Part shown: positions 1-54,476 of the stretch, piece after piece | How positions within the stretch are numbered: the first letter of the stretch is position 1 | How the letters are laid out: each line of letters starts with the position of its first letter | Assembly (NCBI GenBank): GCA_016791365.1 | Contig: JAEUMT010000046.1 | Span: forward strand, 1-64,000 | Origin: Hyphomonadaceae bacterium | GTDB taxonomy: Bacteria; Pseudomonadota; Alphaproteobacteria; Caulobacterales; Aquidulcibacteraceae | Length of the DNA: 64,000 nucleotides | Reading direction: 5' to 3' | Position numbers and translations under genes: made by a program | The notes under the pieces: model-generated | The model's database searches: none | Seen by the model: the letters and a program-made list of their open reading frames with translations, nothing else | What the model was told of the DNA's origin: nothing

Positions 1-633
1 GGGGCGCTATGGCCCCGCGCGGGTGTGCCCCCCCCGGTGAGGGGGGGTGGGGTCGCGCCCAACGCGCGCGCCGGCGGGGGCGCGGGCACACAAATGTCTG
101 ACGCCGAGGCGCACCGCCCCCTCAGTCAGGCTTCGCCTGACAGCTCCCCCGCAAGCGGGGGAGCAAATCCCGAAACGCCGTTCGCGACGTTTGACGAAGT
201 GATGGAACGCATCAAGTTCGAGAACGACGTCGAGCTTGAAGTCGCGCTCGATCGTTTGAAGGTGGTCAGGTTCGCGCCGCAGGGCGAGCTTGTCTTCGTC
301 GCAAGTCCCGATCATCCGCGCGACATGGTGCGGCGCTTGAAATCGTTCCTCGAAGAGCACACGCCGTTTGAGTGGACGATCCGTTCGACGGCGGAATCCG
401 CCGCGCCGGTTGAGAGCTTGGCCGACAAGCGCCGCCGCGAGCGCCAGCGTGAACTTGATGACCTGAAAAAGCATCCGTTCATCGCCGAAGCGTTGAAGCA
501 TTTCCCGGGCGCCGAGATCGCCAAAGTGACGAAGCCGGTGGATGAGAGCGCGCAAGGCGGCGATGTTGTGCCGATGCCAGCCGCGCCGAACGCGCCGCAA
601 AACCCGGCGCGCAAGAAGGAAGCCGATAGATGA
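1..633 (+). CDS. dnaX: DNA polymerase III subunit gamma/tau, C-terminal part (5' end outside window)
   Basis: The reading frame is open from base 1, so only the C-terminal part of tau is present. The last ~150 residues fit the alphaproteobacterial tau tail that contacts the replicative polymerase: a conserved block (TFDEVMERIKFENDVELE), a basic helix (DKRRRERQRELDDLKKHP) and a short FPGAEI motif before an Ala/Pro-rich end. It is followed by ybaB with an ATGA overlap, and recR is close by, which is the classic dnaX-ybaB-recR cluster and the main support for the name. The N-terminal ~50 visible residues are low complexity, and 31 of them are encoded by a palindromic repeat that also occurs in yidD. 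The clamp-loader ATPase domain lies outside the window. Confidence 0.85.
   Translation, partial: GALWPRAGVPPPVRGGGVAPNARAGGGAGTQMSDAEAHRPLSQASPDSSPASGGANPETPFATFDEVMERIKFENDVELEVALDRLKVVRFAPQGELVFVASPDHPRDMVRRLKSFLEEHTPFEWTIRSTAESAAPVESLADKRRRERQRELDDLKKHPFIAEALKHFPGAEIAKVTKPVDESAQGGDVVPMPAAPNAPQNPARKKEADR
76..168 (+). repeat. 93-bp coding palindromic repeat, copy 1 (inside dnaX)
   Basis: This element holds two adjacent hairpins, one with stem TCAGGC/GCCTGA and one with stem CTCCCCCGC/GCGGGGGAG. It is read in frame within dnaX as 31 residues ending [17 protein letters not shown]. The second copy, at 53836-53928 on the minus strand in yidD, has exactly the same length, is read in the same phase and gives [17 protein letters not shown]. 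The last 60 nt differ at only three positions. Two of those three pair with each other in the first stem (C-G swapped for G-C), so the stem is kept. Confidence 0.85.
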
Positions 634-2823: not shown

Positions 2824-2923
2824 CGCTCAACTCCCACGCTCGGCAAAACTTGCCGCGTGATGGCGTTAGTATGCGCCCAACAGCGTTAAGATTGAACAGC
2901 GCAAACGTCGTTAAATCGCCCGC

Positions 2924-3244
2924 CTACGGCCCCGGAACCGGATCATCCTCTCCCGGCTCGATATGCGGCATCAGGTCGGCGTTACAGTCCGCGACATACC
3001 CGCTGATCTGCGCCGTCAGCGGATGCGCCTCACGTTGTGGGCCCGGCATGATCTCGAGCGACGCAAAATCGCCTGGTGTGATGTTTGCTTCGATCTTGTC
3101 CCACACACATGCGCAGAGCGCATTGGCCGAGCCCTGATTCTCGCACGCCGACATGAAATTGCGTTCGACGTCAGGAGCGTACGTCGCCGGCTGCTGTGTG
3201 CAGGCGCCAAGCGCAAGTGCGACAATGATAAATCCAATTCGCAT
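2924..3244 (-). CDS. Small Cys-rich lipoprotein (paralogue 2)
   Basis: This 106-residue protein has a signal peptide with lipobox LGAC, then a Cys-rich domain with CACVWDKIEANITPGDF that matches its neighbour at 2551-2823, and an acidic Pro-rich tail. Both genes are on the minus strand, 100 bp apart, each apparently with its own upstream region, so they look like a tandem duplication that has diverged. The product is probably an outer-membrane lipoprotein facing the periplasm. The function is unknown. Confidence 0.75.
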   Translation of the reverse strand: MRIGFIIVALALGACTQQPATYAPDVERNFMSACENQGSANALCACVWDKIEANITPGDFASLEIMPGPQREAHPLTAQISGYVADCNADLMPHIEPGEDDPVPGP

Positions 3245-51893: not shown

Positions 51894-53821
51894 CGTTTGA
51901 GATCGGGCGGCGTCGCCTCAGCGACAAGCGCCTCTTGTGCATCCGCGAGCGACATCACGTGCTGCTCTTGGCTGCCAAAGCGCCGGATCGCGACACCCCG
52001 CTCCTCGGCTTCCTTTTTGCCGACCACCGCAATAGCCGGCACCTTCATCAGCGAGTGTTCGCGGATTTTGTATCCGACCTTTTCGTTGCGGAGGTCGAGT
52101 TCGACGCGCAGCCCAGCCTTACGCAGCGTTCGGGCAACGTCCTCGGCATAATCGTTCGCATCCGACGTGATAGTCGCGACAACCACCTGCACGGGCGCGA
52201 GCCACATCGGAAACGCGCCGGCGCAGTTTTCGATCAGGATGCCGATGAAGCGCTCCAACGATCCGAGGATCGCGCGGTGCAACATCACGGGGCGATGCTT
52301 TTGCCCATCCTCAGCCACGTATTCCGCATCGAGACGATCCGGCAGCTGATAGTCGAGCTGGATCGTGCCGATCGTCCATTCGCGCCCGATGGCGTCCTTC
52401 ACCGAGAAGTCGAGCTTCGGCGCATAGAACGCGCCGTCGCCTTCGGCGATCACCGGCTCAACACCAGCCGCGCGCGCCGCATTCAGCATCTGCGCTTCGG
52501 CCTTGTCCCAGAACTCATCTGAACCAACGCGCATTTCAGGCCGCGTCGCCAGCGCGATCTTGTCGCTCTTCATGCCGAAATCGGCGTGGATCGACCCGGC
52601 AAGTTGAATGAACCGCGTCGTCTCTTCTTCGATCTGATCCTCGCGACAGAAGATGTGCGCATCGTCCTGCGTAAACGCGCGCACGCGCATCAGACCATGC
52701 AGCGAACCTGACGGCTCGTAGCGATGGCAGGCGCCGAACTCGGCCATGCGCAGCGGCAGATCGCGGTAGCTCTTCTGCCCGAACTTGAAAATCTGCACAT
52801 GACCTGGGCAGTTCATCGGCTTGAGCGAAAGCGTTTCCTCTTCCACCGTCTCGCAAACGAACATGTTTGGCCGGTACTTGTCCCAGTGCCCGGACTTTTC
52901 CCAGAACACGCGGTCAAGCACCTGCGGCGTGCGCACTTCCACATACCCGGCGGCGTCCAAGCGGCGGCGCATGTAGGCCTCGATCGTGCGCCACAGCATC
53001 AGGCCCTTCTCGTGCCAGAACACCATGCCGCGCCCCTCTTCCTGCATATGGAAGAGGTCCATCTGACGGCCGAGTTTGCGGTGGTCGCGCTTCTCAGCTT
53101 CTTCAAGACGCAGCAAATGCTCTTCGAGCTGCTTCTCGTCAGCCCAAGCCGTGCCGTAGATACGCTGCAGCTGCTGGTTTTTCTGATCGCCACGCCAATA
53201 GGCGCCCGCCAGCTTCATCAGCTTGAAGGCTTTGCCGAGCTTGCCCGTCGAAGGCAAATGCGGCCCACGGCAAAGATCGCCCCACTTGTCGCCATGCGAA
53301 TAGACCGTGATCGGCTCGCCCGGCTTGATCACTTCATCGATCGTCTCGGCTTTGTAGATTTCGCCAAGCGATTTGAAGTGCGCGATCGCATCCTCTTTTT
53401 GCCAAACCTTGCGCTGAATCGGCAAATCGGCATCGACGATCTCCTTCATGCGCTTTTCGATCTTGCCGAAATCGTCCGTCGAAAACGGTTCGGCGCGCGC
53501 GAAGTCGTAGTAAAAACCATCCTCCGTCACCGGACCGAACGTCACTTGCGTGCCGGGAAAAAGCTCCTGCACCGCCTGCGCCATCACGTGCGCCGCATCG
53601 TGGCGCAGCACTTCGAGGCCATCGGCGCTATCGCGCATGACCAGTTCGAATTTGCCACCGCCTTCCAGCGGGCGCGTCAAATCCCACCACGCGCCATCGA
53701 TCTTGGCGGCCACAACCTTCTTTGCCAGCGATTTTGAAATGCCTTCCGCGACCGCCAGCGGCGTCACGCCATCGTCGTACGAACGCTCGGCGCCATCGGG
53801 AAATTTAAGAGAAATGCTCAT
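51890..53821 (-). CDS. thrS: Threonyl-tRNA synthetase
   Basis: ThrS charges tRNA-Thr and edits mischarged Ser. The 643 residues show the whole family order: an N-terminal TGS domain ([15 protein letters not shown]), the editing domain with [17 protein letters not shown] (HxxxH), a class II core with the zinc-binding Cys in [11 protein letters not shown], motif 2 [20 protein letters not shown], motif 3 [15 protein letters not shown], and the C-terminal anticodon-binding domain. The start overlaps the yidD stop (ATGA), so yidD-thrS is an operon. Confidence 0.97.
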
Positions 53822-54276
53822 AACTTGCTCTTCTTATTTGCTCCCCCGCTTGCGGGGGAGCTGTCACGCGAAGCGTGACTGAGGGGGAGGTGCGCTTCAC
53901 CGTTGACCGTTGGTGCGGTTGCGCCCCCTTCGTCATTGGCTTCGCCAATGACACTTACCCCGCTTGCGGGGGAAGAAACGGGAGGCGGCCTGTAGCCACC
54001 TTTCCAATCGCCATAGCGCCAAGGGCGCCACCACGAATTCGTCCTGATCTCGCGCGGCGCCGGGTCCCAGCCATGCCCGCCCCAAGGCGCGCACCGGCAG
54101 AGCCGCGCGCCCGCCATCCAGCTTCCAGCCCACGCGCCATGCATGCGCACGCAATCAGCAGCGTACGATGAGCACGTCGGCCGATAGCGGCACGCATTGC
54201 CGATGAGCGGCGAAAGCGTCCACTTATAAAGCTGGATAAGGCCCAGAAGGCCCCGCGCAGGAATGCTCGGCGACAT
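53818..54276 (-). CDS. yidD: Membrane protein insertion factor YidD, with repeat-encoded C-terminal extension
   Basis: YidD assists YidC-dependent membrane protein insertion. Residues 1-75 are a complete YidD ([47 protein letters not shown]). The normal protein ends near here, at ~70-90 residues, but this one has 152. The last ~56 residues are Ser/Gly/Ala-rich and are encoded by palindromic repeats, including the 93-bp element (53836-53928) whose peptide ([17 protein letters not shown]) also occurs in dnaX. The extension was probably added after a repeat insertion removed the original stop. The ATG at 54276 was preferred to the preceding GTG. Confidence 0.9.
53836..53928 (-). repeat. 93-bp coding palindromic repeat, copy 2 (inside yidD)
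   Basis: It has the same length and reading phase as the dnaX copy at 76-168, on the opposite strand. The 3' 60 nt differ from that copy at three positions. Two of these restore base pairing in the first hairpin (stem TCACGC/GCGTGA here, TCAGGC/GCCTGA there). Another hairpin (GTCATTGGC/GCCAATGAC, 53933-53952) and a CCCCGCTTGCGGGG stem (53959-53972) follow in the same gene and are also translated. Confidence 0.85.
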
Positions 54277-54476
54277 CACAAACTACAGCGATTTGATTGG
54301 TTCACGATCGGGGCCAAGCGCAGCCGCTGCGGCGCGCCCGATCCCGCGCCGCCGGCTTTAGTAGGTCGTAGTCGTGACGAAGCGCCGGATCATCCGCCGT
54401 AAATAACACGTTCCGCGCATTTGCAAACCCGTTCCCGCTATGGGAACCGGATCGGCCGCCGAGGGATTGACGCCCG

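Follow-up and report, generated by a model that had tools for sequence, protein, structure and literature searches.

Known palindromic repeats and DUF559 proteins

Bacterial genomes contain several described kinds of palindromic repeat that resemble the element reported here. Intrastrand triplex motifs (TM, earlier PIT) combine pyrimidine, purine and purine tracts in which the third tract mirrors the second (Holder et al. 2015, PMC4666352). According to the available portions of that paper, the triplex is stable in vitro and a stable triplex in cells is unsupported, variability is raised around the motifs, and some motifs form inverted pairs; mobility activities are described there as absent from their gene contexts. 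In-frame fusion of bacterial MITEs outside Rickettsia has already been published, as the available text of two papers indicates (PMC2229807, PMC10969869).

The second component of our analysis is the DUF559 protein family. Its E. coli member YcjD was earlier assigned to the PD-(D/E)XK superfamily (PMC1189080, available part). VsrA, a DUF559 protein of Caulobacter, is reported to be needed for the DNA damage response in cells without a cytosine methylase and has been proposed to be a mismatch-repair enzyme (PMC12907096, available part). No link between DUF559 and palindromic or triplex repeats was found in the titles and abstract openings searched, a scope outside which most subscription papers and bioRxiv fall. 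Here we describe a repeat that is, with a probability of about 0.7, a non-autonomous, MITE-like copy of a mobile element that also has a form carrying a DUF559 gene, with DUF559 as the putative mover.

The repeat in the window

The window is the whole stretch of DNA analysed, 64,000 nucleotides in length. A sequence-only reading had reported a 93-bp palindromic repeat at 76-168 (+) and again at 53836-53928 (-), translated in one phase in DnaX and in YidD. Both stretches are real and measure 93 bp, with 77/93 positions identical. Their last 60 nt differ at three positions as claimed (57/60 identical), and two of the three are stem partners, TCAGGC/GCCTGA versus TCACGC/GCGTGA, which bears out the proposed compensatory change. 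Translation yields the same peptide from both copies, and the host proteins had been named correctly, with DUF3646 in window 1-633 (DnaX) and the YidD family TIGR00278 over residues 10-68 of 53818-54279 (-). The repeat unit, however, is longer than had been thought: the 93 bp comprise the middle and right arm of an element of 140-150 bp, and a covariance model from 19 copies covers window 24-169 and 53835-53979. The features of the two copies are as follows.

24..169, plus strand: family-1 element copy in dnaX (model match C38:24-169), with bases 1-75 as error-laden left arm at the contig end
126..140, plus strand: small variable hairpin in the right arm of the dnaX copy, TCAGGC-TTC-GCCTGA (sequence and alignment pairs)
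143..164, plus strand: outer hairpin in the right arm of the dnaX copy, GCTCCCCCGC-AA-GCGGGGGAGC (sequence and pattern scan)
About 117-123, minus strand: mirror purine tract of the dnaX right arm (mirror rule)
1..633, plus strand: 3' part of dnaX, open at the contig end (ORF, Pfam and front part on L005)
53835..53979, minus strand: complete element copy with both arms, at the yidD 3' end (model match)
53954..53975, minus strand: outer hairpin in the left arm of the yidD copy, CTTCCCCCGCAAGCGGGGTAAG (pattern match with 1 mismatch)
53841..53860, minus strand: outer hairpin in the right arm of the yidD copy (pattern scan)
53818..54279, minus strand: yidD with an element-coded C-terminal tail (ORF, TIGR00278 over residues 10-68)

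In DnaX the peptide encoded by the element lies ahead of DUF3646, the gamma/tau C-terminal domain. Base 1 of the window is a contig end, and bases 1-75 look like an error-laden stretch that represents the damaged left arm of the dnaX copy. The front part of dnaX is found on the reverse strand of contig C44 (L005), where it continues in frame into this element; the assembly thus seems to have broken within the gene, at the repeat. Two contigs terminate within the dnaX element, and their sequence there, window 1-75 and L005:1-73, is error-laden.

In each window copy, three of the six reading frames lack stops over the 93 bp, so a phase shared by two genes says little by itself. The 93-mer, searched against the whole source genome, gives 54 matches at E ≤ 10 and the repeat is therefore far beyond chance.

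Element plan and families

The element is a two-armed inverted repeat. All families share one plan. An arm has an outer G/C hairpin, in many cases a small variable hairpin as well, and a purine tract; a short middle separates it from its mirror image. This layout, with inverted palindromic arms on either side of the middle, is REPIN-like. By eye, several sequence families follow this plan and some places hold half elements. Base pairing is kept among the genome copies as well as between the window copies: RNAalifold on 19 aligned copies predicts 32 pairs, 8 of which are changed on both sides.

The covariance model was built from 19 copies of the source genome's own family 1, and element counts in other genomes depend on it. 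It returned 117 rows at E ≤ 1 in the source genome, palindromes being counted on both strands, and 68 places were drawn from these. Matches were found in 35 of the 41 genomes searched. The small hairpins were compared across 37 contexts. The methylation site GANTC occurs in 2 of the 19 aligned copies. One family, CCTTCTCCTGGTTAAGGAGAAGG, has by eye no DUF559 partner among the 10 DUF559 genes of the source genome. Comparison of 18 loci with known RNA families gave a single match at the gathering threshold, to 6S RNA; a 6S RNA gene directly adjoins one element copy (L010:1162-1321).

Triplex potential of the arms

A hairpin was resolved in 105 of the 108 arms; this parse took the place of a first automatic triplex scan, which had resolved 16. 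When T is accepted opposite A, 64% of the 105 arms have a third purine tract that is a mirror image of the purine strand at ≥87%, as against 13% with the tails of arms having a different purine strand and 9% after shuffling. Judged from their sequence, the arms are potential single-strand triplexes. Family-1 arms depart from the exact E. coli consensus, CCCTCNCCCN3-6GGGNGAGGGN3GGGNGAGGG, in their bases and in having a hairpin as the second loop. Family-6 arms resemble it by eye and are the only ones to do so.

Motif no. 9 of the published E. coli set (PMC4666352) maps about 170 bp away from ycjD, which is the DUF559 gene in K-12.

NC_000913.3 1351204-1351760 (L247): E. coli ycjD (DUF559) locus, adjoining the published triplex motif

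No inverted arm pair was found at ycjD, and the PF04480 search of the E. coli control genome gave no match. The gene is present in 3365 of 5426 E. coli genomes. One genome without it was read and has an RND efflux operon at the site, and ycjD has been reported where eefRABCD is absent (PMC12817139, available part). Since the alternative allele is the efflux operon and leaves no empty site, ycjD was rejected as a clean insertion test.

Copies read inside proteins

A full family-1 copy is read in four proteins, namely the DnaX linker, the YidD tail, UbiG and the linker of an E2 acyltransferase, and in all four hosts the phase is SSPASGG...DSSPxxGGA. TIGR00278 and TIGR01983 score above their cut-offs, and the E2 models and the partial match for DnaX fall short of theirs. 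Stop codons leave two or three open frames across each of the four copies, so the coding phase is partly forced. The UbiG insert sits before the nucleotide-binding motif, which we take to be of the GxGxG type. Codon-usage scores were nearly as high for the antisense frame as for the sense frame and played no part in our decisions.

Of the 30 genomes of the genus, 26 yielded a UbiG orthologue. The full insert is missing from all 25 others, whose main match begins at query residue 85-100, past the insert. Fourteen of these relatives were read at the DNA level: the insert is absent from 13, and in G011 a remnant of the right arm persists at the same position and in the same phase. Within the 26 matched genomes, the full UbiG insert is private to the source species. 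DnaX was compared with its orthologues, as the sequence-only reading had suggested: the element is absent from the three fetched with enough linker (L034, L036, L037). By eye, the DnaX linkers of relatives L035 (about 1-101) and L036 (about 2860-3000) contain a different palindrome in frame, of the GCCGGCGAGGC...GCCGGCGCTCC type, which resembles the repeat around the source genome's own Y1_Tnp genes of L032 and L033.

A ligase-associated DEXH helicase (L126:32-2770, minus strand) holds a half copy together with an insert of another family. TrmB (L131:810-1667, minus strand) contains a palindrome-coded insert of a further family just before the stretch covered by its family model, at a position relatively similar to that of the UbiG insert. 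Two other candidates were not accepted as hosts. PdhA is not a fifth in-frame host, as the copy at L003 lies between the stop of E1-alpha and the start of the next gene, and L008, a doubtful in-gene copy, has no NCBIfam match. The family-1 copy at L003:1450-1617 forms an ORF of at most 67 residues with TGATG overlaps on both sides, possibly a new small protein.

Open frames were examined in 66 element entries. So far a handful have a demonstrated, family-supported host protein, and coding use therefore looks like a tolerated by-product of the element. This bears on the comparison with Rickettsia palindromic elements that had been drawn earlier, of which the compensatory palindrome, the one-phase peptides in unrelated proteins and the relatives without insert stand, and which, given the small number of copies with supported hosts, explains only a part of the finding. 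The repeat might be a protein-coding palindrome family of that kind, tolerated or selected for its peptides and moved by some other enzyme, with DUF559 as a frequent neighbour or passenger. The four hosts sharing a phase and the absence of the UbiG insert from 25 other genomes fit such a family, but the phase is partly forced by stops, supported hosts are few among the 66 entries, and the packaging and co-occurrence of DUF559 described below would be left unexplained. We consider it unlikely.

DUF559 genes between arms

The source genome has 11 PF04480 matches above the model cut-off, one of them a 27-residue fragment; all 11 lie outside the window. On inspection, each of the 10 full-length DUF559 genes is flanked on either side by palindromic arms, and in L149 and L152 the gene lies directly between the arms. 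We quantified this arrangement by scoring each upstream flank against the reverse complement of the downstream flank. For Caulobacterales the threshold was 15.0, the 99th percentile of 191 shifted windows (control median 10, maximum 16.5), and the 39 loci comprised the 10 from the source genome and one fetched locus for each of 29 relatives. The threshold was passed by 33 of the 39, with a median of 23.5 against 10 in the shifted controls, and by 9 of the 10 loci of the source genome, where L150 scores exactly 15.0. None of 25 ubiG control loci passed (Fisher p 1.8e-12 against DUF559).

The arrangement extends beyond Caulobacterales. At DUF559 loci of other orders or classes (n=29, one per genome), 17 score above 15 and 13 exceed 24.6, the 99th percentile of the 145 controls drawn for this set; these controls contain repeats themselves. 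Ten plasmid loci were picked for breadth out of 39 records, and six score above 15 (two from Deinococcus and one each from Azospirillum, Sphingomonas, Pseudanabaena and Sinorhizobium meliloti); the Synechocystis and Picosynechococcus plasmid loci are just over the control maximum of 12, and those of Sinorhizobium K101 and Lelliottia do not reach 15. In all, 6/39 Caulobacterales loci, 12/29 from other orders or classes and 4/10 from plasmids do not pass 15. Inverted arms of the CCCCCTAAATCCCCC type flank DUF559 on the Pseudanabaena plasmid (L316); repeats of this type are common in cyanobacteria. DUF559 relatives also occur in two phage records. The similarity of the arms is weakly correlated with that of the DUF559 proteins (Mantel r 0.12, p 0.003 over 68 loci; r 0.16, p 0.006 over 39).

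The DUF559 protein

All 14 DUF559 proteins compared, YcjD included, have the invariant residues E17, D46, E57-x-D59-G60 and H63 (E, D, E-x-D-G-x-x-H). The DUF559 profile matches the solved endonuclease-like protein 3hrl (5.9e-38), the mobile-intron endonuclease 3r3p (E 1.4e-4) and Vsr (1cw0, 8.4e-4). Vsr is a repair nuclease. By these residues and profile matches, DUF559 (PF04480) is a predicted Vsr-like PD-(D/E)XK nuclease.

Presence and absence at fixed sites

Two intergenic gaps, presumably fadA-fadB and purL-gor from the protein sequences of the bordering genes, were followed across the 30 genomes of the genus, with several states assigned by eye at each. The fadA-fadB gap was matched in 27/30 genomes and inspected in 23, and contains a DUF559 unit in four species, a decayed unit in one, an element without the gene in three and neither in 15. 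The purL-gor gap was matched in 30/30 and inspected in 24. Here DUF559 is found directly upstream in six genomes and further upstream in one, a remnant in one and an element in one; the remaining genomes have a single hairpin (2), a clean short gap (7) or unrelated upstream DNA (6). Empty, arms-only and arms-plus-DUF559 states occur at both gaps in different species. A direct repeat of about 15 nt bounds one element adjoining the source genome's purL, and no general target duplication was found, 6 of 39 elements exceeding the 95th percentile for flanking direct repeats.

These site states bear on the possibility that DUF559 uses the arms as sites for recognition, regulation or repair, for example as a structure-specific repair nuclease acting on triplex or hairpin DNA, and does not move them. 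The kinship of DUF559 with the repair nuclease Vsr is in keeping with such a role. So is the mismatch-repair function proposed for the Caulobacter protein (PMC12907096, available part). Against it stand the empty, arms-only and arms-plus-gene states of the same gaps, and the position of the gene directly between the arms in L149 and L152. We likewise regard it as improbable.

Co-occurrence across genomes

With cut-offs of E ≤ 0.001 for the element and E ≤ 1e-10 for DUF559, the two occur together in 34 of the 41 genomes, the element alone in one, DUF559 alone in none and neither in six (rho 0.74); one of these six is 65% complete. The single element-only genome is G023, with 38 element matches but no DUF559 match at that cut-off. 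Outside the genus the pattern holds throughout: 11 of the 16 genomes have both and five have neither.

Y1 transposases of the RAYT type are distributed differently. They are present in 16 of the 41 genomes and absent from 19 of the 35 that bear the element, including G018 (67 element matches) and G020 (45). The source genome has three Y1_Tnp matches, one of which passed the inverted-flank test, and two of these genes (L032, L033) are flanked by eye by a repeat of a different type. It is very unlikely that the repeat is a REPIN-type element moved by a RAYT (REP-associated tyrosine transposase): the gene-less pair of inverted arms does look like a REPIN and Y1_Tnp genes are at hand in the genome, but they are missing from more than half of the element-bearing genomes, and the repeat beside L032 and L033 is another one. 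RAYT was accordingly rejected as the mover, the distribution of the Y1 enzyme not following that of the elements. An origin in chance similarity, ordinary terminators or an assembly artefact, to which the error-laden contig end at dnaX might have pointed, is refuted by the 54 matches in one genome, the covarying stems, the matches in 35/41 genomes and the yidD copy inside its contig.

A proposed DUF559-associated mobile element

The packaging of DUF559 between arms, its co-occurrence with the elements and the site states point to it as the mover, and we infer that it catalyses the movement in the manner outlined here. Each end is an arm made of a G/C-rich outer hairpin with pyrimidine and purine strands, often a small variable hairpin, and a third, mirrored purine tract. 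The gene-carrying form has DUF559 as its single gene between the inverted arms, and the window repeat belongs to the gene-less form. DUF559 may recognise the folded arms when they are single-stranded and then nick or cut at the arms or at the target, and a copy would spread during replication or break repair, mostly into intergenic gaps. Since one sense phase of the element can lack stops, copies landing in protein linkers, tails or loops would persist as inserts of some 45-50 residues (SSPASGG...DSSPASGGA).

Arms and DUF559 together would make up a putative new class of mobile element. On a broader view, which we hold to be somewhat better than an even bet, DUF559 is the mover of a distinct and very widespread group of bacterial mobile elements with hairpin/intrastrand-triplex ends, and the triplex-type repeats of Proteobacteria, Deinococcus and Cyanobacteria are gene-less copies of them, which in Caulobacterales also add peptides to core proteins. 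If so, a common domain of unknown function gains a role and a widespread class of unexplained bacterial repeats gains a mover. The DNA damage attributed to the Caulobacter DUF559 protein would then have an alternative reading (PMC12907096, available part). Core proteins would then be lengthened by selfish DNA outside Rickettsia as well. With a candidate cognate nuclease in hand, the nature and spread of the repeat become directly testable with a protein of about 120 residues and an arm of about 50 nt.

Comparison with known systems

The arms share with intrastrand triplex motifs the pyrimidine-purine-purine order, the mirrored third tract and the occurrence of some inverted pairs, and family-6 arms fit the E. 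coli consensus by eye. Family-1 arms differ in having a small hairpin instead of the 3-nt second loop, and neither a nearby mobility gene nor a link to DUF559 is reported for those motifs in the available part of the paper (PMC4666352). The CIR repeats of Caulobacter are also alphaproteobacterial and have two inverted-repeat arms and a linker; in the available text, however, they carry GANTC and are never intragenic (PMC2229807), whereas here GANTC is found in 2/19 copies and copies lie in genes. Rickettsia palindromic elements are likewise palindromic repeats of about 150 bp read in frame in unrelated proteins, their size and habit being taken from the available part of PMC10969869. The element described here differs in its few supported in-gene copies, its DUF559 partner gene and its different alphaproteobacterial order, and the likeness drawn here is one of size and habit.

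At the protein level, the Vsr-like homing endonuclease of a mobile intron (3r3p) and Vsr (1cw0) are related to DUF559 at a level detectable by profiles, and 3r3p is itself the nuclease of a mobile unit. Homing targets one cognate site. The elements here, in contrast, occupy many sites that are unrelated to one another, possess arms and also exist as copies without a gene.

A further parallel is to REPIN-RAYT systems, which also combine inverted palindromic arms, a swarm of gene-less copies and one small nuclease gene as the putative partner. That partner is here a PD-(D/E)XK protein of the DUF559 family and not a Y1 enzyme. Because Y1 genes do not track the elements, the family is not a member of the REPIN-RAYT group; with movement as the putative step, we judge that it works like one.
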